30,420 bases of DNA from a virus, in IMG/VR virus record IMGVR_UViG_3300020051_000062, positions 1 to 30,420 of that record; one strand, written 5' to 3'. A program made the translations under genes and the position numbers. Below the pieces are notes generated by a model. It searched no databases. It was not told the DNA's origin and saw nothing but the letters and a program-made list of their open reading frames with translations. Below, one piece after another: positions 5,084-30,420 of the stretch. Numbering within the stretch: position 1 is the stretch's first letter; each line of letters begins with the position of its first letter.

Positions 5084-5168
5084 TCTGGTCTGGCTCATAG
5101 ATAAACTACTCGGTGAGGATCACTGTTCTTACAGTTGGTCCTACTGGAAAACAAGGAGAGATTGGTAA
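4929..5168 (+). CDS. Overlapping frame; C-terminal half probably translated
   Basis: This frame (79 codons from ATG 4929) has an implausibly Leu/Ile-rich first half that is antisense-like shadow of the 4916 gene, but its last ~35 residues read RKRKGKTNLVWLIDKLLG followed by an acidic, Trp-rich tail. It stops in a TAATG overlap with the integrase start, the same junction type used by real neighbouring genes. I take the C-terminal part as real coding sequence, either of a separate gene with a non-obvious start or of the 4916 gene after a +1 shift. Confidence 0.45.
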   Translation: MIHMMTVLIGLAIYLKRILIATSVLLNVLLGGHLNQTFSARNWERKRKGKTNLVWLIDKLLGEDHCSYSWSYWKTRRDW

Positions 5169-6082
5169 TGAAGAATATCCCCAAGGCATCCGCTAAACTG
5201 CGTGAGGTAGTAGACTTTTACTTAGTCTCACCCGCATTCCGTAGACTCAAGTCCTCCTCCCAGCGAGACTACGAAGTGCATCTGTCAGCAGTAGTAGACA
5301 CACCAGTCGAAGGGCGTTACCTTGGGGATTATCGCTGTAAGAATATCAAGGTACGCCACTTAACACAGGCATACGAGCAATGGTTACAGGTAGGTGTTCG
5401 CACTGCCAACTACAGAAAAGCTGTACTGTCCACAGCTTGGAAGAATGCCATGCGCTATGACGTGTTTACACATGACCCTGTATCCCTAGTTCAAGCAATA
5501 ACAGAACAACCCAGACGGACTGTTTGGACTAAGGATCAGGTGCGTACATTTCTTGCTACATCTTACAGCGACTTTCGTTGGCGCAGCATAGGGCTGATCG
5601 TTCATATGTCATACGACTGGGCGCAACGTGTAGGTGACATGCGTTTACTTACATGGGATGCACTAAACCTAGATCAGTGTACGATGGACTTGACTCAGAG
5701 CAAACGTAATGCAGAGATCCACCTCCCAATCTCTAAAGGTTTGTGTGATATGCTGCGCCAGCAGAAAGAACAGTTTGGCTTTCAGGATTATGTAGCACCC
5801 AAGGTTCAGCCTGAGTTCGGCTGCTACAATCCATACAGTAAGCTAGAAATACATAGATATATCAATGAGATACTAGCCAAGGCAAACCTACCCAGTGAAC
5901 TAACAGCCATGGACTTACGGCGTACAGCAGTGCGTGAAATGATGGAGGGTGGGGTTGACTTGAGTAACATCATGCAGGTAACAGGACACAAGAATGTCAA
6001 TTCGGTTAAGCCATACATGGTGAATACATTAAGCGGTGCATCGAAAGCACTAGCAGCAAGAGGGAATAATGAGGATGAGTGA
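5168..6082 (+). CDS. Tyrosine recombinase (phage integrase)
   Basis: A 304-residue site-specific recombinase. Residues ~10-110 form a SAM-like core-binding domain, and ~115-304 the catalytic domain. Visible catalytic residues are Arg154 (AQRVGDMRLLTW), Lys179 on the beta-hairpin, Arg251 (MDLRRTAV), His274 (TGHKNV) and the nucleophile Tyr283 (KPYM). The usual His of the HxxR box is Met248. The start follows AAGGAGAG at 5153-5160. It should cut and rejoin phage and host attachment sites, or resolve multimers. No excisionase or attachment site is evident nearby; the only tRNA gene is almost 11 kb away. Confidence 0.88.
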   Translation: MKNIPKASAKLREVVDFYLVSPAFRRLKSSSQRDYEVHLSAVVDTPVEGRYLGDYRCKNIKVRHLTQAYEQWLQVGVRTANYRKAVLSTAWKNAMRYDVFTHDPVSLVQAITEQPRRTVWTKDQVRTFLATSYSDFRWRSIGLIVHMSYDWAQRVGDMRLLTWDALNLDQCTMDLTQSKRNAEIHLPISKGLCDMLRQQKEQFGFQDYVAPKVQPEFGCYNPYSKLEIHRYINEILAKANLPSELTAMDLRRTAVREMMEGGVDLSNIMQVTGHKNVNSVKPYMVNTLSGASKALAARGNNEDE

Positions 6083-19213: not shown

Positions 19214-22200
19214 TTATAGCTTAGCTACTTCTTCGTACATCTCTTCGAGATAATCTACATATTCCATAAACAAGTCTAGCTCATTAAAGTTAAACTCATC
19301 TATCTTACCTTCGATACCATACTGTAGCTTCATCAGCTTGAGTGCTTCCTTGCGTATCTCTTTGTTACCCTTAGTCGCAGCCTTAGAAGCTAGGCGTAGT
19401 CGTGCAGCATCTGTGCCACCATAGCCTTCAGCCATCTGAGAGCGTACCTCTTTCTTAGTATCAGAGACAAGAGTCTTCAGCATCTTACGCTTACCTGTCA
19501 GGCTAGCCTTCTTGAATGCCTCTGAGTTAACAAGGTAATTAGTACGGCGTTCCAGTGCAGGAGCCAACATGCTATTCATAACCTTGTCATACGCAGGGAT
19601 CTTTGTACGTTCACTAGCAGTCCACGGTTGCATCTCTGCAATAGAGTAAGCTTTCTCTGTAGCTGTGCGTCCTGGTTTAACTGTGATACCAAAGATACGT
19701 GCGAATGGGTTAGCATCGTATACCTCACCCTCACGAGTAGCAACACGTAGTTCCTCACCTGTCAGGGTATCTGTCTTATCACTGAATGCTTCGAACAGAT
19801 TATCTACATACTTAGTAGCCGACTGTGTAAAGATAGCACCTGCACCTTCTGCCTGACGAACATCCTTAGCTGTATCTGTACCAGTAGCAAATCCAACGAT
19901 CTTGTTTACAGCATCTAGAGGACGTGTTACACCTGATACAAAGTTACCTGCTACTTTAGAGAAGCCATTAAACAACTCACCTGTACCTACTTCATCAGCA
20001 TTAACAAGAACGTCAATCAGATTGTTAAGGTCATTACCAAACTGAGCATCACGTGCAAGCTGTCCTACAGCAAGTTGTGTTGTCAGTTCTTGTGTTAACT
20101 CTCCTGGTACCTCTTCTCCGTTCTGACGCATGTTGTACACACGCCCTGCAGCAAGGAATAGAGAGAACGGGAATGTGTTCTTAGCGTCAACAATAGTGCC
20201 GCCACCTACGTCTACATCGTATACACCCAAGCCCTTCTCACGGCGCTCCTTGTCATATTCTGCAGCCGAAAGCAACCCAACAGAACCTACAAAGAAACGC
20301 GCAAAGATTTCACGCTCAGCTACGTCCATACCTTCGTCCTTTAGGATCTTACGCCCAAAAGGTTTGATCAAAGAAATCACAGCTAAAGGTGACCACTGGT
20401 ATGCAGTAGCAACTACGTTATTGAAGAAGCGTCCAAATGGTAGGATAACACCTATACCAGGTGTGTTAGATACAGTCTCAACAAACTTAGCAGTGGTACG
20501 AATAAGTTCACCCTGATCCTTTGTTGTGTAGTCCTTAGCAAACACAGACTTGAGTGTAGTATCTAGGGCACCTTGCAGAGAGCGTTCATCAATGACGTTT
20601 TCATCCATCATCAAAGCTTCTTTAAGGGTGATATCCTTCTCAACACGCAGGTACTTATCTAGCTCAGTCATAAACATCTGTGACTTAGTGAAGCTATCCT
20701 GAATACGTACACCTGTGATTTGGTTCGCTGCAGTAGCCATAGCTTCAACGTTCTTGAACAACTTGTCGTCAGGGCTAATACCGTAACGCTTAGCTGTAGC
20801 ATCCACGCCACCTGCCATAGTCTCAAACAATACCTTCTGCACATCTTGGTTCTCATCTAAGAACTTCATGTAGGCATCGTGTGTTGTGTAAGGGTCCATC
20901 AAGTTACGTGCACGCTGTGCGACGATAGCACTGTAAGCACGTGCCTGACGCATAGACTCGGCTGCGCCCAGCGCATCACCAGTAATACGTTGACGTGCAG
21001 CAATAGCCATCAAGCTTGTGTGGTTAAACAGATCAGCCATAGTCTGACCTACAGCAAACTGTGCATAACCTGCAACGTTCAATGCTGTGGTAGCAGGAGA
21101 TGAAACAAGCAAGCGTTTCCAGATAGACTGACCATAGCTAATGCCGCTAGACTTCTTAGCATTAACCATCTCTTGCTGCAGCATCTCTTCTGCTTCAATA
21201 GTATCAAGCGTAGCCTTCATCTTATCTTGTGATGCTACGATACCAGAATCAAGAGTACGGCGTACCTGAGACATAACGTTTAACGTCTTACCTGCTTCGT
21301 TGATACGCTTAGCTACCATGTCACCCAGCTGGATACGTGTTGCAGATAGTTCACCCATCTGTATGCCAGAGTATTTAGCCATCTCTTTATTGATAGCAGC
21401 CAAGTCTTCCTGTGGCATGAAGCGCATGACGTTAGTCATTACATCAGATAGATGTTTCTCACGCCCAATCTTAATGCCTTTATCTTTGTAGATCTTAGCC
21501 AAGCCACCCTTGCCATCTTCACCTAGCATGATCTGCTTGATAAGTTCAGCTGGCATAAGGTCACCAGAGAAATCAGCACCCGCTTCTACCTTACTATTCC
21601 AAGCCTTTACGTTATCTAGGATAACACCTGCAGCTTCGTCTGTTTCTTCTTTGGTAAACTTAGGGGCTAACTCGTCAATGACATTGTTGGCTACTTTCTC
21701 TAATGCTGAACCTGTATCTTCAAGACCCGATGCACCACGGAACTTACCGAAGCCTAGTTGTGCAGCACCAGCAACACCACCTAACAGAGATGAGAAGCCT
21801 GTCTGCAATACGCTGTACTCTTCCTGAGCACCTGCTTCTAGCATAACATTCTGTGCCATGATGTCTTGCATAACAGCAGCACCAGCATCAATAGCTGTAG
21901 TCTGTTTCAGTGAACGTGTCGCTGCAGTTTCAAACAACTCTTTCTGTTTAGCTTTCATTGCATCCTGTGCAATAGCTCTACGCCCATCCTTAGCAACACG
22001 TTCTGCTACATCCTTGTAGGCTTGACCTGCTACACGGGTAGACATACCCTTTTCAACAGCACGCTTCGCAGCCTCAATACCAGCCTTCTCAGCAGCCTCT
22101 TTAGCTACCTGACGTGTGGCACCGCTAGACAGAGCTTCCCGCCCTGCAGCACGCACTATAGCCTTGATAGTCTGCTTTCCTGTTACAGCCAAACCAGCTG

Positions 22201-22699
22201 CACCTGCACGACCAATACCACCAGTCAGTAGACCTAAGTAGTTTGTAGGGTCAGTCGCTGCAGCAGATACATAATCCCACACACCACTGACAGCACCCAT
22301 GGCACCATCATTAACAAAGACATTACCTAGCTGGTCATAGATTTGGTATGCACGTTTAGCTTTCTCTTTACGGGCTTCATCTGCTTTACTAATAAAGCGT
22401 ACCTCGCCTGCAGTAGAGACAGTGTTAGCATTAAAGTAACGCATGTGCTGAACAAAATCATCCACAACCTCTTCATCTGCTATATCTTTGTAGTCAACAC
22501 CCTTACGATCAACCATGTACTCACGGATATTGTTTAGGTACTGCGGTTTAAGCAGATCGTCTTTCTTTAGCGTAGCATTAGAGTCAAGCACAAAGTCATC
22601 CTCTGGCTCATCATCCATACGTGCTACAGTAGACGTGACTTTATCAACAGTAGAGGTGGTAGTACCACCCCACTTGTTCTTTAATTCATTAATATCCAT
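19214..22699 (-). CDS. Very large virion protein, probable ejected internal protein
   Basis: At 1161 residues the longest gene in the window and the last of the leftward cluster. The start is acidic and disordered (DDEPEDDFVLDSN). Several hydrophobic, Gly/Ala-rich segments follow (VWDYVSAAATDPTNYLGLLT, SSLLGGVAGAAQLGFG, GVILPFGRFFNNVVATAYQW), between long helical Ala/Lys/Glu stretches. Size, position after the tail fibre genes, and hydrophobic segments resemble the internal core or ejection proteins of T7-like phages (gp15/gp16), which build a channel for DNA entry. No lysozyme motif is visible here. The name is based on context and shape, not on a motif. Confidence 0.65.
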   Translation of the reverse strand: MDINELKNKWGGTTTSTVDKVTSTVARMDDEPEDDFVLDSNATLKKDDLLKPQYLNNIREYMVDRKGVDYKDIADEEVVDDFVQHMRYFNANTVSTAGEVRFISKADEARKEKAKRAYQIYDQLGNVFVNDGAMGAVSGVWDYVSAAATDPTNYLGLLTGGIGRAGAAGLAVTGKQTIKAIVRAAGREALSSGATRQVAKEAAEKAGIEAAKRAVEKGMSTRVAGQAYKDVAERVAKDGRRAIAQDAMKAKQKELFETAATRSLKQTTAIDAGAAVMQDIMAQNVMLEAGAQEEYSVLQTGFSSLLGGVAGAAQLGFGKFRGASGLEDTGSALEKVANNVIDELAPKFTKEETDEAAGVILDNVKAWNSKVEAGADFSGDLMPAELIKQIMLGEDGKGGLAKIYKDKGIKIGREKHLSDVMTNVMRFMPQEDLAAINKEMAKYSGIQMGELSATRIQLGDMVAKRINEAGKTLNVMSQVRRTLDSGIVASQDKMKATLDTIEAEEMLQQEMVNAKKSSGISYGQSIWKRLLVSSPATTALNVAGYAQFAVGQTMADLFNHTSLMAIAARQRITGDALGAAESMRQARAYSAIVAQRARNLMDPYTTHDAYMKFLDENQDVQKVLFETMAGGVDATAKRYGISPDDKLFKNVEAMATAANQITGVRIQDSFTKSQMFMTELDKYLRVEKDITLKEALMMDENVIDERSLQGALDTTLKSVFAKDYTTKDQGELIRTTAKFVETVSNTPGIGVILPFGRFFNNVVATAYQWSPLAVISLIKPFGRKILKDEGMDVAEREIFARFFVGSVGLLSAAEYDKERREKGLGVYDVDVGGGTIVDAKNTFPFSLFLAAGRVYNMRQNGEEVPGELTQELTTQLAVGQLARDAQFGNDLNNLIDVLVNADEVGTGELFNGFSKVAGNFVSGVTRPLDAVNKIVGFATGTDTAKDVRQAEGAGAIFTQSATKYVDNLFEAFSDKTDTLTGEELRVATREGEVYDANPFARIFGITVKPGRTATEKAYSIAEMQPWTASERTKIPAYDKVMNSMLAPALERRTNYLVNSEAFKKASLTGKRKMLKTLVSDTKKEVRSQMAEGYGGTDAARLRLASKAATKGNKEIRKEALKLMKLQYGIEGKIDEFNFNELDLFMEYVDYLEEMYEEVAKL

Positions 22700-22701
22700 T
22701 A

Positions 22702-24234
22702 TTAGTTATCCAGCTGATAGCGTTTCAAGATGTTGGATGTAATGTTCTTGGCTTTCTTTTCGTCACCTTCGTATTCCATAATCTCAATAGCAGGGTTGGA
22801 ACCACGGAAAGCACCATCATCCATAGAGTCTAGTTGCTCTTTAGTTACATGGTAGGTACCACGCCCCTTGATCTTAATCTTGTATGTATCCTTTGTCAAG
22901 TTACGCTTGATGTTAAGGTTACGTAGTGGTGCTTCAATAAGTTCATTAATGTCATCACGGAAATAGAAGTTCATTCCACCTATCGTTGACTCAGGTAGGT
23001 TACGCTCACGGCGTTGCTTACGTGTCATATCTTCCCACTGATCACGTGTATACTTGTCTGAGTATTTATCTTCATCATCTGTAAAGATAGACTTACTACT
23101 CAAGGCATCAGCAACGATAGCCTTACCTTCTTCATCTAGTGGTATAGATGTAGGGAACTCTTCATCAAAGTCCTCCTCTGATACAGAACCCTCAAAGGTA
23201 ACTTCCTCGACGATTACATTACCGTCACCCTCCTCAAGACCTTCACCTTCAGGTGACATATCTGTGTCACTCTCCTCAGTATCGTCTTCTGCTTCTACAA
23301 TACCGAATGTCTCTTTAAACTGCGTAAGTGCACTAGGGCTTAACACGTCTGCAATCTGACGCATAGTTAATTCATTATCAAAGAAGCCGCCATACTTGTA
23401 GATGTCTGCATATGTGTTGATCAAGTTAACAGACGCACGTTCCTGTATCTCTTTAGTGGCTAGATCCGCTGCTTCGTCAACATCTAATCCAGAATCCGAA
23501 GCAGCTATTCGTGCAGCCTTGATGTAAGCCTGACCTTCTGAGCTAGACACAGCATCACTCATTGTCTTTGCTAGTGTCGTGCTAAAGTCTAGTGCATCTT
23601 TAGGTGTGTAGTACTCAATGTCACTCATTGTCAGGGAAGCATCTGGGAACATAGACTGGTACTCTGCCTGTGCTGCAGCTGCGTTAACGTCTGCGATAGA
23701 CATGTCACCCATGTAACCTGACTCGGATAGCTCTTGCTTGGCTTTACGCATCTTACCAAAACCTAACAAGCTTGGTACAAAGCCTACCTCTTTCTCTTCT
23801 ACTTTAGGAGCACGTCCACTTACGCCATATGTACGGGCAGCAAAGTCCTGTAGAGACATGTCTGCCATGTTAAGATCCATAGCTGGAATCTCTGGCATAT
23901 TTACAATAGCTTCAATATCATCAGGGCCTAGACGTTTACCAGGCATCTGATTAGCAGCCTCCTGCAGCTTCTCATAGAACTCAGAGATACCAGTGACACC
24001 AGAAGACATAGCAGTACGTACTTGCTCTTCTGTTGCGCCCAGCGCCATAGCACGTTTACCTAACTGTGCAGCCTGCTTAGCACGTTGATCACGTTGCTGT
24101 AACACATTAAGGTTACGCAGAGCCGAAGCTTCCTGTTTCTCTTTATACTTAGCAGCCTCGGCTTCACGTCTGTCCATACCCTCAGAGAGAGTTTCAAAGA
24201 AGCCTGCTGCAAAACTATCAAAATTAAATGCCAT
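22702..24234 (-). CDS. Probable internal virion protein (510 aa)
   Basis: Begins MAFNFDSFAAGFFETLSEGM, an amphipathic helix typical of small membrane-active virion proteins, then a long charged coiled-coil (residues ~25-65). The centre (about 320-345) is extremely acidic (EAEDDTEESDTDMSPEGEG). The C-terminal ~100 residues seem folded (YKIKIKGRGTYHVT). No family recognised. It lies just upstream of the 1161-residue gene with a two-base gap and is probably co-translated with it in the ejection-protein module. Confidence 0.6.
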   Translation of the reverse strand: MAFNFDSFAAGFFETLSEGMDRREAEAAKYKEKQEASALRNLNVLQQRDQRAKQAAQLGKRAMALGATEEQVRTAMSSGVTGISEFYEKLQEAANQMPGKRLGPDDIEAIVNMPEIPAMDLNMADMSLQDFAARTYGVSGRAPKVEEKEVGFVPSLLGFGKMRKAKQELSESGYMGDMSIADVNAAAAQAEYQSMFPDASLTMSDIEYYTPKDALDFSTTLAKTMSDAVSSSEGQAYIKAARIAASDSGLDVDEAADLATKEIQERASVNLINTYADIYKYGGFFDNELTMRQIADVLSPSALTQFKETFGIVEAEDDTEESDTDMSPEGEGLEEGDGNVIVEEVTFEGSVSEEDFDEEFPTSIPLDEEGKAIVADALSSKSIFTDDEDKYSDKYTRDQWEDMTRKQRRERNLPESTIGGMNFYFRDDINELIEAPLRNLNIKRNLTKDTYKIKIKGRGTYHVTKEQLDSMDDGAFRGSNPAIEIMEYEGDEKKAKNITSNILKRYQLDN

Positions 24235-24238
24235 TATA

Positions 24239-24787
24239 TTAACCCTTCGCCATCAAGCCCATAGGCTTTGCTTCTTGCATCTCTTCTGCAGGTGCTTCTT
24301 CTTCAGGCTCATCTTCCGCTGCTTCAACCATGTCACTCAACATAGTCTTACCTTCGTCTGATTCATCCATACCCTCATCCTCTAAGTACTTAGTAGCAAG
24401 AGCCATAAAGCGATTCATCTCTGCTTTCTCTGCATGTTCCTGTGGATCTTCGGGTGAGTCCTTAACCTCGATACCCATATCTGTAAAGACAGCCTTGAGT
24501 AGGTTGTGGATCATAGGTGCTACAAGCATACCTGCATCAATGGTGTGTAGACCACGCATAACACCCATCATGTAGACAGACTCTACGATAGGGGCTAGGG
24601 GTACGTCTAGTTGCACCATAGCAGCTAGATCATCTAGTACATCTTGGTTAGCTAGTCGCTCAACGTAGAACTTTGCTACGTCTTCTACGTCTGCCATCTC
24701 AGGTGGCTGTTCCCAAGGGTTGTTACGTGGTTCAGTTGTAAGAGACTGACCTGGGATTGGTCTATCAAAAGGTCCAGCTACTGCCAT
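24239..24787 (-). CDS. Hypothetical acidic virion-cluster protein (182 aa)
   Basis: I chose the ATG at 24787, preceded by AGGA with eight-base spacing and lying past the previous stop; an upstream GTG at 24817 would overlap that gene. The product starts MAVAGPFDRPIPGQSLTTEP (disordered), has helical middle parts with Met-rich segments (VYMMGVMRGL), and an acidic tail (EDEPEEEAPAEEMQ) ending KPMGLMAKG. No family recognised; structural or chaperone role from context. Confidence 0.6.
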   Translation of the reverse strand: MAVAGPFDRPIPGQSLTTEPRNNPWEQPPEMADVEDVAKFYVERLANQDVLDDLAAMVQLDVPLAPIVESVYMMGVMRGLHTIDAGMLVAPMIHNLLKAVFTDMGIEVKDSPEDPQEHAEKAEMNRFMALATKYLEDEGMDESDEGKTMLSDMVEAAEDEPEEEAPAEEMQEAKPMGLMAKG

Positions 24788-24797
24788 TTCAAATATC

Positions 24798-25244
24798 CTA
24801 TTTAGTAAATCCTGCACCGAAGTATAAGCCTACAATAGCTGATACAATGTGCGTGTCTAGTGGTGTGATAACAAATCCTGATGCGTACTTCCACTTAATG
24901 ATCTCAGTGCCACCACCGAATAGACCACTAAGGAAACCAGTCTGCATCTCTGAGTAACCAACGATTACTTGTACTTCAGGATACCATACTGCTACCAGCT
25001 TTGGCAATACAATAATTGCAAACACAGCTGATAGAGCGATAAGCCTACGTGTCCATGCGAAGTGTTTGTCGTTCTTACCTGCGTCACGTGCCATTGCTAC
25101 TTGCTTAGCATTAAAGTTGGCACGCTCCATTAGCATCTTCTGTTGGGCTTCTTTAGCTTTAATGCTTTGCCCCCAGATAGACATGACCCCACCTAACACG
25201 GTGGAGCCTAACATTGTGATAAGTTCTAGGGGAAGTCCTAACAT
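24798..25244 (-). CDS. Membrane protein, candidate holin-type (148 aa)
   Basis: Three hydrophobic segments: near the start (LPLELITMLGSTVLGGVMSI), about residues 70-88 (LIALSAVFAIIVLPKLVAVW) and near the C-terminus (HIVSAIVGLYFGAG), with a charged helix between the first two (KAKEAQQKMLMERA). The layout resembles three-helix holins of gene-transfer agents and marine phages, though I cannot exclude a virion membrane protein. The start is ATG 25244, sharing a base with the preceding stop and spaced seven from AAAGGTG; a TTG two codons upstream is less likely. Confidence 0.65.
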   Translation of the reverse strand: MLGLPLELITMLGSTVLGGVMSIWGQSIKAKEAQQKMLMERANFNAKQVAMARDAGKNDKHFAWTRRLIALSAVFAIIVLPKLVAVWYPEVQVIVGYSEMQTGFLSGLFGGGTEIIKWKYASGFVITPLDTHIVSAIVGLYFGAGFTK

Positions 25245-26488
25245 TACCAAACACCTTTACTATTCTTACGTACAGACTTTTGCTTGTTCTCGTATATATT
25301 AGAGGCGCGTGTAGTTTCTTCTGTGTGCAGCAAGTTACCATCTTTATCATAATACTTAAACTTTGTATTAGTACCAGAGTTATCAGCATCAATCCGTGTA
25401 ATCTCTTTACCGCCTGTTGCTGAAGTAGTTTCGTTCCAAGCGTTAGCACGTGCTTTGGCAATGCCTATTGAAGCACCGCCACCTAACACGGTAGAACCTA
25501 CCAAGATTTTGCTGTATAGGTTTTCGGGATTAGGTTCATCTTTTGCTAGCTCTGCGTAGATTGCCTTAGCTGATTTACCTGAATACCATCCCGCACCCTT
25601 GTTCCAGCCAATCTTTACTACAGCTTTCTTACTGCCTTCGCTCATGCTAGACCAGCTGTCACCTGCTGCAGCTTCTGCTTGATTAGCAAACTCTTCAATG
25701 ACACCTTTAGCAAATGCCTTGTCGCTGTCAAAGTCACTGCGCTTTACAGTGGTACTACCTACAGTCTTATAGGCACCTGATGTATCTAGCTTACCTTTAT
25801 CAAAACCTGTAACAACAGAGGCACCTTGAGTAAAGTCTTTACCATTATACTTCAAGCCATCAGGTACCACCCCTCCTGCAAGTGTAATGTTCTTGTTATC
25901 TTGCCCTACGTGGGCCTCGTCACCCTCTTGCTTACTTTCAACAAAATCACTATAAACTAAATCTGTAAGGGTAGTGGTAGCTTTTTCTTCTGTCGCAGGC
26001 TTAGACATCAAGCCCTTACCCTCTGCCTTCACAGGGGTAGCTTCTAGTTCTTCCTCTGTTACATCTACTGGAGGTTCAATAGGTACATCTGCATCTTCTG
26101 CATCTACAAACTCTGGCTCTGGGCGTAGTTCTGGTACAAGAGATTCGTCTTCGTCTAGCTTCTTAAGCCGCCCTGGTTCAGCTAGTGACTCACTGATACC
26201 TGCTTCCATGCGATTAAGTGCAGCAACCTCTGCGGAACGCCGTGTCAACTCATCAAAGTCTTTCAGCGACATCTCACTGCGTTCATAGAGAGATGCAGGG
26301 TTTGTGTCGGTGAATGGTGTGTCAGCTAGTGTACCCCCCGCTGCAGTAAACGACTTAGTGAAACGTGTGTACCAGTCTTCCTGTAAAGGTTCTGCAGGCT
26401 TGGACGTAGGAGTACCTAAGCCTTTTGAGGTAGGCGCTGTAGCTGCTACAGGCTCTGGTCTTAATTGGGGGCGTAGTGAGTAATCCAT
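25244..26488 (-). CDS. Virion protein with lysozyme (GH24-like) region
   Basis: 414 residues from ATG 26488; a longer frame upstream is only a shadow of the neighbouring gene. Residues 1-165 are Pro/Glu-rich and probably disordered (LRPEPEFVDAEDADVPIEPP). Residues ~175-352 resemble phage lysozyme: Glu188-x8-Asp197-x4-Thr202 (QEGDEAHVGQDNKNIT) approximates the E-x8-D-x5-T triad, KKAVVKIGWNKGAGW is the helix typical of ALVSFAFNVG in lysozymes, and GIAKARANAWNE matches GLVRRRAAE. The remaining C-terminus is beta/charged. It may cut peptidoglycan during DNA entry or at lysis. Similarity is moderate and visual only. Confidence 0.6.
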   Translation of the reverse strand: MDYSLRPQLRPEPVAATAPTSKGLGTPTSKPAEPLQEDWYTRFTKSFTAAGGTLADTPFTDTNPASLYERSEMSLKDFDELTRRSAEVAALNRMEAGISESLAEPGRLKKLDEDESLVPELRPEPEFVDAEDADVPIEPPVDVTEEELEATPVKAEGKGLMSKPATEEKATTTLTDLVYSDFVESKQEGDEAHVGQDNKNITLAGGVVPDGLKYNGKDFTQGASVVTGFDKGKLDTSGAYKTVGSTTVKRSDFDSDKAFAKGVIEEFANQAEAAAGDSWSSMSEGSKKAVVKIGWNKGAGWYSGKSAKAIYAELAKDEPNPENLYSKILVGSTVLGGGASIGIAKARANAWNETTSATGGKEITRIDADNSGTNTKFKYYDKDGNLLHTEETTRASNIYENKQKSVRKNSKGVW

Positions 26489-26501
26489 TGGTGTACCTTT
26501 A

Positions 26502-28385
26502 TTATAATCCAAAGATGGCGTTTGCTGCATTCTCTGCAAGCTTACCAAGGAAATTACCAGCAGCTTTAGAACCAGCAGAAGTTTTAGCGTTTTCAATCTT
26601 AGCAATGGCAAGGTTAGCATCTCTGTTAGCAGCATTCTCAGCAGACTCCCATGCCCATGCTAACAAGTCACGCTCACGCTGTACGACATTGTTGTATGCT
26701 GTCATTGTAAAGTTATTAGCCGCTAGTGCAGCATTACGGTTAGCTTCGTTCTGTGCAGCATTCTCAGCTGTAGTAAGGTTCTGGAACCACTGAGCATTAG
26801 CCTGCGCTACAATCAAATGGTTCTGTGAATTAAACTGATCACGAGCATTCTGTTGTGCTGTATTAAATTGTGCCAGAGCATTAGTCTCACCAGCATTGAA
26901 ACGTTCCATGGCATTCTTTTGCTCAGTGTTAAACTGTGATACCTGTGTAGACAGGGAAGCAAAGAACTGGTTAGTCTGATTCTCAGATGAGGCATTGAAC
27001 TGACGTGCTGCATTATCAGCTGCAGTGTCACTCATGATAGAGTTAACACGCTCCTGTGCTTTGAACATGGACATCTGTTGTTCATTACTCAAGTTAGTCA
27101 TATCCATCTGTAGGAATGCTTGAGCGTTTTGTACTTGTGCTTGCTGACGATTGTTAAGGTTGGTCATGTCCATCTGAGACATGGTTGCAGCGTCAGCCAT
27201 AACCTTAGCTTGTTTATTGGATAGGTTAGCTAAGTTCATGGTCTGTGCCATCTTAGCATTCTCTAGTGCAACTTGTTGTTCAGCTGAGAAGTTAATGTTA
27301 GCAATCTCACTAACACGTGCAGCATTACGTACCTTAGCTTGGAACTCTTGATCGAAGTCCATACCCATGAACTTAGCACGTTGCTCAGCCTTAAGCATAG
27401 CCATCTGTTGCTTGTTAGAGGCATCCATCTGTGCAATAGGTAGAGCAGATTCCATAGCAGCCTGTACAAGAGCCATACCTGCCATAGAGGATGCACTCAA
27501 TCCACGTGCAGCCATCTGTGCTGTAGCATTACGCATAGCACCAGCCGCCCATGCAGGAGGTTGCTTACCTTGGAATTGGTTCATCAAGTTAGCCATCTCA
27601 CCCTGAACGGATGCAGCCTGCACTTGACCTGTACCAAAGGTAGCGTCTACCTGTGCTTGGTCAACACCAGAGCCACTAATAGTTTCAGCTGTAGTCATCT
27701 GCATAGGAGAAGGCATACCTTGGACAGTAGCCGCTTGTCCTTGTGCAGCCTGTAAGCCTAGCTGTGCTAGTTGTTGAGGGCTACCCTGTGCAGCCTGCAT
27801 CTGTGCTTGCTGTGACACTTGGCCCTGTGCAGCCTGTTGTCCTTGTAGGGCTTGACTCACTGCAGGGGCAGCTGTAGCAGCCTGAACTGTCTGAGTAGGG
27901 GTAACAGGTGCAGCCTGAGCAGCCGCAGCAGGAGTTGCCGTAGCTGCTGTAGCAGTAGTAGCAGCCGCAGGTGCTTGTCCTGTAGGCGCATCCATCTGAC
28001 CACCAGCAATCTGAGCAGGAGTAGAACCAGCTACAGTAGGTGTAGTAACTACAGAGGTAGGATCGGCTGTTATAGCCTTAGTCATTTTGCTTGCGTTGCT
28101 AGGTTGAGGCTTAGGAGTAGGTCTTGGCGTAAGTTTAGTCTTACCTAAAGCCGCGATTATAGGTCCTACCGAATTTAACACACCACCAGATGCCATCTGT
28201 ACGGGTTCACCCTCAATAGTGCGACGAGCAGCCAGAGTGTACTTACCCATCTTAGCAGCAGCTGCAGGGTTAGACGCTAGGAAAGCGTTAATAGATTTCT
28301 CATCCGTAGGACCATCATAGCCCAGCGCTGGAAGGATCTTATTCTGTAATGTCTCAGGCTTAAACCCTGCAAACTTCTTAGCCAT
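26502..28385 (-). CDS. Large repetitive virion protein (627 aa), 11/22-residue helical repeats
   Basis: Residues 1-70 are a small folded start (KPETLQNKILPALGYDGP), followed by a Pro/Thr/Ala/Gln low-complexity region (about 85-260; QAAQGQ, TPAAAAQAAP). From residue 321 to about 550 the chain is a continuous 22-residue, then 11-residue repeat (see the repeat entry). The end is AKIENAKTSAGSKAAG plus a hydrophobic closing helix. Composition and position after the fibre genes suggest an internal or ejected virion protein forming a long helix bundle. No named family. Confidence 0.7.
   Translation of the reverse strand: MAKKFAGFKPETLQNKILPALGYDGPTDEKSINAFLASNPAAAAKMGKYTLAARRTIEGEPVQMASGGVLNSVGPIIAALGKTKLTPRPTPKPQPSNASKMTKAITADPTSVVTTPTVAGSTPAQIAGGQMDAPTGQAPAAATTATAATATPAAAAQAAPVTPTQTVQAATAAPAVSQALQGQQAAQGQVSQQAQMQAAQGSPQQLAQLGLQAAQGQAATVQGMPSPMQMTTAETISGSGVDQAQVDATFGTGQVQAASVQGEMANLMNQFQGKQPPAWAAGAMRNATAQMAARGLSASSMAGMALVQAAMESALPIAQMDASNKQQMAMLKAEQRAKFMGMDFDQEFQAKVRNAARVSEIANINFSAEQQVALENAKMAQTMNLANLSNKQAKVMADAATMSQMDMTNLNNRQQAQVQNAQAFLQMDMTNLSNEQQMSMFKAQERVNSIMSDTAADNAARQFNASSENQTNQFFASLSTQVSQFNTEQKNAMERFNAGETNALAQFNTAQQNARDQFNSQNHLIVAQANAQWFQNLTTAENAAQNEANRNAALAANNFTMTAYNNVVQRERDLLAWAWESAENAANRDANLAIAKIENAKTSAGSKAAGNFLGKLAENAANAIFGL
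26733..27425 (-). repeat. 22- and 11-residue in-register protein repeats
   Basis: Within the 627-residue protein, residues 321-452 split into six 22-residue units, each starting with an N/D-[LF]-x-N/A-[KRE]-Q-like motif (NLSNKQ, NLNNRQQ, NLSNEQQ) and often ending QMDMT. From 453 onward the same register continues as 11-residue units ending QF/RF (QTNQF, AMERF, LAQF, ARDQF). The hendecad period fits a continuous amphipathic helix or right-handed coiled coil, like apolipoprotein- or stalk-type repeats. At the DNA level the copies are diverged. Confidence 0.75.
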
Positions 28386-28387
28386 AA

Positions 28388-28645
28388 TTATTGTTTCCCT
28401 AATTGCATATACACAGCTGTTGCGATAAAGCTGAGTATAGCTACGGTTGTTATCTTAATGAATGTGTTCCATATACTTCTACGAGTATCTTTCCATGTGT
28501 CTAGGAGGCTGCGCATCTCACGTAGATCTGTTGCAGCACTCTCATCATGAAGTCCTAGTTGATGCAATACTTCCTTGGCACCACGTCTAGCAGCACGGTC
28601 AAGCATAGCCTCTAATTCGTCTGGTGTCAAGTTAATCTCTGGCAT
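28388..28645 (-). CDS. DUF6127-like membrane protein (85 aa)
   Basis: Residues 1-60 are a charged helix with LDRAARRGAKEVLHQLGL, ATDLREMRSLLDTWKDTRRS, followed by one C-terminal membrane helix (ITTVAILSFIATAVYM). It matches DUF6127-type proteins of alphaproteobacterial phages and gene-transfer agents, from memory. These resemble XhlA-like/holin-associated proteins. It lies among fibre and internal virion genes; a role in lysis or membrane attachment is plausible. Confidence 0.7.
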   Translation of the reverse strand: MPEINLTPDELEAMLDRAARRGAKEVLHQLGLHDESAATDLREMRSLLDTWKDTRRSIWNTFIKITTVAILSFIATAVYMQLGKQ

Positions 28646-28657
28646 CTTAAAACCTTG

Positions 28658-29380
28658 TTACGGTGTTAGAACGTAAGTACCAGGGGTACTATAGGTATAA
28701 TTTGTCCCATTAACGGTAAGTTGAGCGTAGCCATTGGCTCCGTTACCGCCATCATAGCCCGTTGCAGGTGCAATACCGCCAGAGCCTACATAAATAGTTA
28801 TGCTATAACCAGGGACGAGCCAATAGGATCCTGATTTGTATGATGACGCTACGCCACCTTCTCCAGAGCAACCGCCTGAATCGAAGAAGCTTCCGCTGTC
28901 ACCACCACCGCCGCCGCCTCCAGAGCCGTAGTTAACAGCGTCTGCGCCGCTGCTATTAAGTCCACCACCAGCCCCGCCAGAACCATAATACGAGGCTCCT
29001 CCATTTGTACCTGATGTAGATCTGTTACCCTTACAGTTCTCACCGCCACGACCACCATACGAGATAATCGAGGAGCTAGGGAAAGCTATTCTAGACTGAC
29101 TGCCTGCAGGCGCATAGGTACCTCTATTACCTTCGCCACCATCGTCTACACCGTAACCGCCTGCGCCACCGCCACCAATTACAATGTAATTAACGTAGTA
29201 GGCTTTATACCTACCTCGCATGTTAGACATAGAGATCGTACCACTACTAGGTACACTTGTGTTGTTACCTGTAATGTAAGATCCATTATAGTAATACTCT
29301 GACAGGCTAATAGGATTACTACCGCCAAACTCAGTCTGTACCTGAGACAGAGATATAGGTCCAGTTGATGGTAGAGACAT
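28658..29380 (-). CDS. Glycine-rich tail fibre/adhesin-like protein (240 aa)
   Basis: Starts with MSLPSTGPISLSQVQTEFGG and SLSEYYYNG, a start found in many phage tail proteins, repeated in part as VPSSGTISMSNMRG. Residues ~68-210 are a glycine-rich sandwich with GGGGAGGYG, GGRGGEN, SGGAGGG, SGGGGGGG and GSGGIAPATG blocks. The C-terminus (ANGYAQLTVNGTNYTYSTPG) is strand-like. Such polyglycine helices form receptor-binding tips in phage adhesins (for example T4-like gp38). It follows the S74 fibre gene by one base and may be its distal partner. Confidence 0.75.
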   Translation of the reverse strand: MSLPSTGPISLSQVQTEFGGSNPISLSEYYYNGSYITGNNTSVPSSGTISMSNMRGRYKAYYVNYIVIGGGGAGGYGVDDGGEGNRGTYAPAGSQSRIAFPSSSIISYGGRGGENCKGNRSTSGTNGGASYYGSGGAGGGLNSSGADAVNYGSGGGGGGGDSGSFFDSGGCSGEGGVASSYKSGSYWLVPGYSITIYVGSGGIAPATGYDGGNGANGYAQLTVNGTNYTYSTPGTYVLTP

Positions 29381-29381
29381 A

Positions 29382-30420
29382 TTACTTAGCCTTCTTTAGA
29401 GATTCAACCTCTGCTGACAATTCTTTGACTGCTTCGATCAGTACACCTACAAGGTTACCGTATGCAACAGACAAGTATTCGCCATTCTCTTGTACTACTT
29501 CTGGGATAACTTTCTGTACCTCTTGGGCGATTACACCTGTTGATGCCTCACCGTCCTTGGTAAAGTTAACACCACGTAGAGCTTTTACTTTCTCTAGTGC
29601 GTCAGGGATAGTAACGATGTCAGACTTCAAGCGTTCATCTGAGTAAGCCGTTACGTCACCCGCTGCTAGTATACTACCCGTAGAATAGAAGCTTTTACCA
29701 TTATAGGTACGAACCCATGTGGAGTCTTCCATATAGATGCCACCACCATAGGTGCTACTATACCAACCTGTCTGTCCAGTAGATCTAAACCAGTTGCCTG
29801 CTTCAAAAGACGAAGCATACAAGAAGTCTGTATAAGGGTTGCAGTAGATGTTAGAGGTACCATATACCTGGTTACCTGAACCCCACAACATCTGGTATGT
29901 GCCGCTACTATTGTCACTGTAATTGATAGTAACTTGACTTGCTATACTTGCGGAAGAAGCGTTACCAGAAACACTACCAGTAAAAGTAGCATCAGTACCG
30001 TTTGTACCGTTGTTTAGTACAACTGTACCGTTACTTGCTCTAATATCTCCTGTAACATCTCCTGTAACATTACCTGCTACATTACCTGTAATATTCCCTG
30101 AGACATTACCTGATACATTACCTATGAAAGTACTTGCTACAAAGTTCTCTGTACCAACAGTCCAGCGGTCATTAACCTCATCCCATGTCAATGATTTATT
30201 AATAGCTGTACCACGTTCAATCTCAATACCAGCACTCTGAGAAGGTGTCCCTGTCTCGTCACTGTTAAGGGTAATGATGTTATCAGCTAAGTTGATTGTA
30301 TTTGTATTAACAGTAGTAGTGGTACCGTTAACGATAAGATCTCCACCAACTGTAACTGTACCTGATGTAGTCAGGGTATTCATAAGGTTAGCACCTGTAG
30401 AGGTAACGTTACCTGTCAGG
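29382..30420 (-). CDS. Tail fibre with S74 intramolecular chaperone domain (N-terminus cut by window)
   Basis: The frame stays open to the window edge and continues upstream (LTGNVTSTGAN before the internal Met at 30383), so the gene is longer than shown. Counting from that Met, residues 1-115 hold beta-strand repeats (TVGGDLIVNG, GNVSGN units), 120-245 a triple-beta fibre shaft/head, and 246-333 the Peptidase_S74 chaperone: SDERLK with Ser248 as cleavage-site residue and its Lys, STGVIAQEVQ, IPEVVQ, and a trimer coil. The chaperone folds the trimer and then cuts itself off before Ser248. This is likely the main receptor-binding fibre. Confidence 0.85.
   Translation of the reverse strand, partial: LTGNVTSTGANLMNTLTTSGTVTVGGDLIVNGTTTTVNTNTINLADNIITLNSDETGTPSQSAGIEIERGTAINKSLTWDEVNDRWTVGTENFVASTFIGNVSGNVSGNITGNVAGNVTGDVTGDIRASNGTVVLNNGTNGTDATFTGSVSGNASSASIASQVTINYSDNSSGTYQMLWGSGNQVYGTSNIYCNPYTDFLYASSFEAGNWFRSTGQTGWYSSTYGGGIYMEDSTWVRTYNGKSFYSTGSILAAGDVTAYSDERLKSDIVTIPDALEKVKALRGVNFTKDGEASTGVIAQEVQKVIPEVVQENGEYLSVAYGNLVGVLIEAVKELSAEVESLKKAK
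30042..30122 (-). repeat. Short GNV/GDV repeats in the tail fibre
   Basis: Residues 88-114 of the fibre, counted from the internal Met, repeat a four-residue unit (GNVS GNVS GNIT GNVA GNVT GDVT), with 12-nt units in the DNA. This is typical of a beta-helical or collagen-like shaft and could vary in copy number between strains. Confidence 0.7.

Follow-up and report, generated by a model that had tools for sequence, protein, structure and literature searches.

A hendecad-repeat gene heads a cassette that closes the tail module

The stretch of DNA analysed here, which we call the window, is 30.4 kb long. It comes from an IMG/VR virus record and represents an HMO-2011-type podophage, the nearest cultured relative of which is Roseobacter phage CRP-207. 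Genes for a DnaB helicase, DNA polymerase, Cas4-type exonuclease, ribonucleotide reductase and PhoH are on the plus strand, and the structural genes are on the minus strand. Note that the window also contains an integrase gene, at positions 5135-6082. Hence, the phage may be temperate. The gene of interest, at 26502..28385 on the minus strand, encodes a 627-residue hendecad-repeat protein that is a candidate pilot, or ejection, protein. On one side are tail-fibre genes and, on the other, those with which the structural module ends. Directly upstream, 28388-28645 encodes an 85-residue protein of the DUF6127/phrog_10540 family, followed by genes for a Gly-rich adhesin-like protein (28658-29380) and a tail fibre with an S74 tip (29382-30383).

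Homologues were found in 26 cultured-phage records and more than 500 candidate IMG/VR stretches. The closest comparison is with CRP-207 gp44; the proteins share 70% identity, homology is full-length and, according to gene tables, both occupy the same cassette position. This protein and HMO-2011 gp25, each annotated as hypothetical, are direct homologues with the same gene order and repeats. HMO-2011 gp25 differs in having one extra 11-residue unit and another C-terminal extension, of the CWVAREVYG type. Scans of the 627-residue protein against Pfam, PHROGs and NCBIfam gave no meaningful match, and no match to tape-measure proteins. Similarly, searches of the PDB by sequence, repeat and profile matched no solved structure. 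Foldseek comparison of an AF2 model with viral models recovered family members and, otherwise, weak matches to long helices with TM-scores of about 0.3 or less. Four matches resulted from a scan of bacterial genomes. These are on short MAG contigs (5.5-29 kb), are probably phage contigs, and make no case for a prophage.

Four further minus strand genes complete the cassette. The first open reading frame, 25244-26635, overlaps the end of the repeat gene, and in-frame ATG codons near 26530 or 26488 are likelier starts; the probable internal start gives a gene at 25247..26503. In relatives, this gene is of the peptidoglycan-hydrolase or LysM type. Briefly, LysM is present in the counterparts from L323 and CRP-207 (gp43), the latter also having a weak GH19 match, and a domain search with the window copy returned no matches. 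Next are genes for a 192-residue protein (24239..24817), found at the same position in relatives, with 22 cultured-phage records, and a 510-residue protein (22702..24234), a candidate middle ejection protein supported by hmmsearch matches at the same position. The module ends with a 1161-residue protein (19214..22699), a candidate large ejection protein. AF2 predicts this to be mostly helical with low confidence (mean pLDDT 47.6), and the model was unusable for fold searches. In most relatives, the order is repeat protein, a variable gene (LysM, lysozyme or other), a protein of ~165-195 residues, one of ~500-600 residues, and a large protein. At the extremes, the fourth protein has 365-928 residues and the last 817-1893.

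Further observations concern the neighbours of the gene in two relatives. In pelagiphage HTVC115P, gp46 (L084:10486-10935), directly downstream of the hendecad protein, is a lysine acyltransferase of the HlyC (RTX toxin) type (PF02794, E 1e-15), which might acylate a virion protein. In HTVC033P (L091:5163-7277), the tail module contains, immediately upstream of the repeat gene, two genes for 2OG-Fe(II) oxygenases and one annotated as a ferrochelatase, for which we found no Pfam match.

Domain organisation of the repeat protein

The protein begins with a helical domain (residues 1-66; 28188..28385, minus strand, as for all segments below), predicted by AF2 with pLDDT 75-89 for residues 11-60. 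This domain is kept in close relatives and, according to the alignment, missing from the CHOED, MQM1 and RHph members. Residues 67-257 (27615..28187) form an A/Q/T/P-rich linker, predicted to be disordered (pLDDT mostly 35-69), that varies freely in length among relatives. A conserved helical module, PxWA...RGLSASS...SALPIAQ, spans residues 258-320 (27426..27614) and anchors the start of the repeats. Here, the mean top-residue frequency is 0.80 and AF2 places helices at 278-294 and 301-339. The repeats occupy nucleotides 26733-27425, corresponding to residues 321-551, and comprise six 22-residue units (residues 321-452; 27030..27425) followed by 11-residue units with the consensus QFNaxxxNAxx (residues 453-550; 26736..27029). 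Residues 551-627 (26505..26735) are a helix bearing the WAWxSAEN anchor, the spacing of which is constant at 45, and a short Gly/Ala-rich tail. Of 15 family members scanned, only those of CRP-3 (L089) and CRP-738 (L090) have a C-terminal S74 endosialidase-type chaperone domain, which is absent from the window protein.

The repeat is periodic and conserved at the protein level

An earlier note, made from the DNA sequence alone, had described an unbroken run in which six 22-residue units lead, in one register, into 11-residue units. Our data bear this out. Compared with 2000 shuffles, self-identity of residues 321-550 peaks at multiples of 11 only (z-scores of 5.0, 7.7, 4.6, 6.2 and 4.8 at lags of 11, 22, 33, 44 and 55, respectively). 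In residues 321-452 the dominant lag is 22 (z 7.3, compared with 2.7 at lag 11), as for a 22-mer array, and residues 453-550, with z-scores of 4.9 at lag 11 and 4.6 at lag 33, behave as an 11-mer array; the register is continuous between them. The same autocorrelation gave no signal in the flanks (residues 258-320 and 551-602). Six Phe residues are exactly 11 apart between positions 463 and 518, a number reached in none of 5000 shuffles. Six consecutive F/W residues with this spacing were also detected in 122 of 185 family members, and seven in none. Across 80 close homologues, the run differs in length only by a single 11-residue unit, located at the N-terminal edge; two further close-homologue loci stop at their contig ends.

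The earlier note had also proposed that absence of an 11-based hydrophobic period, or of conservation in homologues, would refute its reading. Both properties were found. Hydrophobicity peaks at 131 degrees (11/4 residues), with a power of 16.6 compared to 9.1 for the 99th-percentile shuffle, and the mean top-residue frequency is 0.73-0.76 in the repeat versus 0.45 in the linker. At 98.2 degrees, the power over residues 321-550 is 0.0, because the two halves differ in phase, and it is at most 0.8 at 98-103 degrees. An amphipathic stripe of 3.6-3.67 residues does not, therefore, span the whole run. The most conserved hendecad position is position 1 (0 of 3000 permutations), where 76% of residues are Asn or Asp. 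Since position-1 residues are 11 apart, they align on one straight Asn/Asp ladder. Note that no DNA-level tandem repeat is left in the repeat region. Hence, the units are old and have been maintained at the protein level.

Repeat length changes only in whole 11-residue units

Measuring repeat length between anchors within the repeat could fake multiples of 11. We therefore redid the test with two conserved anchors outside it, PIAQ before and WAWxSAEN after. Among 183 distinct homologues, the anchor-to-anchor span is 179, 190, 201, 212, 223, 256, 267, 322, 355 or 377 residues. All ten values equal 3 modulo 11, so every difference is a multiple of 11. As a control, we used the distance from M1 to the first anchor. 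In 86 homologues this took 64 values, covering all modulo-11 classes with no preference. A tree of the flanking, non-repeat sequence requires no fewer than 13 span changes. If changes are independent, and residue classes equally likely, the chance that 13 would all obey the rule is (1/11)^13, or ~3e-14. The rule is kept in phages of Sinorhizobium, Rhizobium, Vibrio, Aeromonas, Pseudoalteromonas, SAR11 and SAR116 and, in the divergent member set, down to 28-38% identity.

Some span changes are of a single 11-residue unit and the quantum is therefore 11 rather than 22. Eleven residues make three helix turns, at 3.67 residues per turn, so that gain or loss of whole units leaves both ends in phase. 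Unequal recombination between repeats, which also yields whole units, was considered and rejected; there is no DNA-level repeat and there are zero indels of any other size between the anchors. We conclude that selection acts on phase rather than on length, as would be expected of one unbroken hendecad helix built from three-turn units. Note that CRP-207 and CRP-3, which infect one host strain, have spans of 256 and 201 residues, five units apart. Hence, span is not simply set by envelope thickness, and simple envelope-spanning control of length is doubtful.

Predicted shape of the helix

An AF2 monomer model was built from a 35-sequence alignment. It is helical between residues 301 and 602, interrupted briefly at 340-345, 383-389 and 429-433, and residues 434-602 form one helix, with pLDDT 65-81 in most of it. 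Since pTM is 0.27, we make no claim about tertiary structure. Even so, as modelled, the protein looks like one very long helical rod. On a hendecad wheel, residues 321-452 have hydrophobic positions 2 and 10 on one side and 8 opposite, giving stripes at 98-164 and 327 degrees. In the 11-mer half, F11 and position 8 form a stripe at 262-327 degrees, and Ala a weak one at 98. Two opposite hydrophobic stripes would suit a helix that touches two neighbours in a wide ring.

The repeat period had been taken to fit either apolipoprotein-like amphipathic helices or hendecad coiled-coil helices. The AF2 model and the 11-residue rule favour the second, a long hendecad-type helix; the first loses ground, as no single face persists over the run. 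Exchangeable apolipoproteins have 11- and 22-residue repeats, a single lipid-binding face and Pro punctuation. The window protein is alike in period and lacks the other two features. The suggestion of membrane-crossing helices is likewise unsupported. There is no transmembrane-like stretch in the repeat, for which the best 19-residue hydropathy mean is 0.22 (at most 0.92 in 12 relatives), and 29% of residues are Asn or Gln. Despite the shared period, it is therefore very improbable that the repeat lies on lipid as apolipoprotein-type helices, or crosses membranes as a bundle; power at 98-103 degrees is negligible and, furthermore, independent helices lying on lipid would need no strict phase rule. 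We also give very little credence to the repeat being an N/Q-rich, low-complexity or prion-like tract with no defined fold. The composition is suitable, and prion-like domains are reportedly common among podovirus proteins (PMC5694896), but the strict modulo-11 rule, site-specific conservation and helix prediction all argue otherwise.

Comparison with known hendecad proteins

The earlier note knew of no described phage protein with this design. This holds for the podoviral family, of which we found no description, but not for the design, since both a hendecad tube and tape-measure proteins with F/W-x10 spacing have been described. The nearest working model is the DNA pilot protein H of phiX174, a decameric alpha-helical tube (PDB 4JPP; PMC7354561), in which hendecads form a straight helix and the tube is lined with Q, N and R (PMC7354561). 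Common to H and the window protein are Gln/Asn-rich hendecads, a long straight helix and a conserved polar stripe, and neither the tube part of H nor the repeat needs a transmembrane segment. There are also differences. In H, three hendecads are followed by heptads, with one dominant hydrophobic face, whereas the window protein has ~21 unbroken units and two faces. In addition, phiX174 is an ssDNA microvirus with a tube, while the window phage is a dsDNA podovirus for which a tube is our inference. Comparison of the protein, the repeat and a profile with the PDB detected no sequence relation to H.

The second parallel is with tape-measure proteins that carry F/W every 11 residues (PMC3271669; TP901-1, PMC5099701). 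As here, Phe recurs every 11 residues, copy number varies by whole units, and phase outweighs side chains. For TP901-1, deletion of half a repeat abolishes visible plaques, while replacement of a repeat with 11 Ala is tolerated (PMC5099701). The length rule described above is the natural counterpart of that experiment, with the same phase rule. Tape-measure proteins, however, belong to long-tailed phages. Here, tails are short, markers fewer and the gene neighbourhood different, and there is an Asn ladder and a 22-residue sub-array.

An ejected pilot protein and its alternatives

The setting of the gene, which the earlier note had assigned to an ejection module, supports that assignment; the gene is the first in a cassette with the look of a podovirus ejection module. 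Lying at the end of the tail module, and having a size gradient, the cassette resembles T7 13-14-15-16 and P22 7-20-16. SU10 gp20-24 offer a further parallel, as virions contain these proteins before, but not after, releasing the genome (PMC9509320). Like the SU10, T7 and P22 cassettes, that of the window shares gene order, size gradient and an A/N/Q-rich helical protein at its head. Homology was not detected. Using hhalign, the repeat protein and cassette proteins gave probabilities below 5% against T7 gp13-16 and P22 gp7, gp20 and gp16. Comparisons with proteins of T7, P22, SU10, 7-11 and PVA1 gave only S74-region or near-noise matches. Among these, a match to SU10 gp22 (E 0.01-0.05) was not accepted, and the gp7all match arises from S74 and the Gly-rich tail. 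Furthermore, 11-residue periodicity is absent (z <2) from P22 gp7 and gp20, T7 gp14 and gp15, and SU10 gp22. Hence, the likeness between cassettes is an analogy of position and make-up. In the literature searched, we found no virion proteomics placing the family in the particle.

We consider it an evenly balanced prospect that the protein is a virion pilot (ejection) protein in which the C-terminal 300 residues form one straight hendecad helix, with copies assembling into a tube or bundle. Such a protein would be stored in the virion and released ahead of the DNA, with its flexible N-terminal linker allowing passage through the portal. Several long helices, side by side, would then make the tube or bundle, with the position-1 Asn/Asp ladder on one polar face. 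This structure would bridge part of the cell envelope while DNA is delivered. Virion presence, ejection, an oligomer, a tube and an amide-lined lumen are thus all things that we infer.

The main rival reading, which we regard as rather unlikely, is a tail needle or trimeric fibre, with the repeat as an external trimeric coiled-coil shaft topped, in some members, by S74 as an intramolecular chaperone. The gene sits just after those for tail fibres, the P22 needle gene 26 is two genes before gene 7, and the CRP-3 and CRP-738 members end in S74, a domain typical of trimeric fibres. S74 is indeed commonest on tail fibres, but the S74 of these members is also shared with annotated DNA ejection or injection proteins (phrog_4287; phages 7-11 and PVA1), and separate fibre genes exist. 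The pattern of conservation is the opposite of that expected, the N-terminal half being variable or missing and the C-terminal helical half most conserved. There are two hydrophobic faces instead of one heptad stripe, and hhalign found no match to P22 gp26.

A tape-measure-like rod, which would lie stretched out along the tail or portal channel and fix a length as the particle assembles, seems improbable to us. The F-x10-F spacing equals the published tape-measure pattern (PMC3271669) and the phase rule is that of TP901-1 (PMC5099701). Note that tape-measure families were compared only by the published pattern and general PHROG and Pfam scans. The family has six consecutive F/W markers, though, where published pattern 1 has seven, and the phages are podophages. 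The MQM1 tail measures 9.2 nm (PMC10410586), while the 223-residue span of the MQM1 protein would be ~33 nm as a helix (0.15 nm per residue). Hence, this span, if extended, is too long for the outer tail, and a tape-measure role there is unlikely. We see little chance that the protein is an internal head or core component that acts like a scaffold or organises DNA and is retained by the particle rather than ejected. An N/Q-rich, near-neutral rod could serve in this way, but the gene is distant from the portal, scaffold and coat genes, at the tail-module end and, in relatives, beside a peptidoglycan-acting gene.

We return to the pilot protein as the best explanation; the repeat protein is probably part of the device that delivers viral DNA into the cell. 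A stronger proposal, which we think rather unlikely, is that podophages of this group, one of the most abundant among marine viruses, use one modular hendecad rod to make an alpha-helical DNA tube that is lined with Asn and ejected. Such a tube would have arisen independently of phiX174 H, its length evolving only in whole three-turn units. That span has changed at least 13 times in nature, always by multiples of exactly 11, argues unusually cleanly for a rod that is helical without interruption, and leads to the prediction that whole units are tolerated and fractions are not. The same rule connects podophages with phiX174 H and siphophage tape-measure proteins, which share the hendecad design. 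Hence, a protein that had no functional hypothesis, in a very abundant group of ocean phages, now has one.
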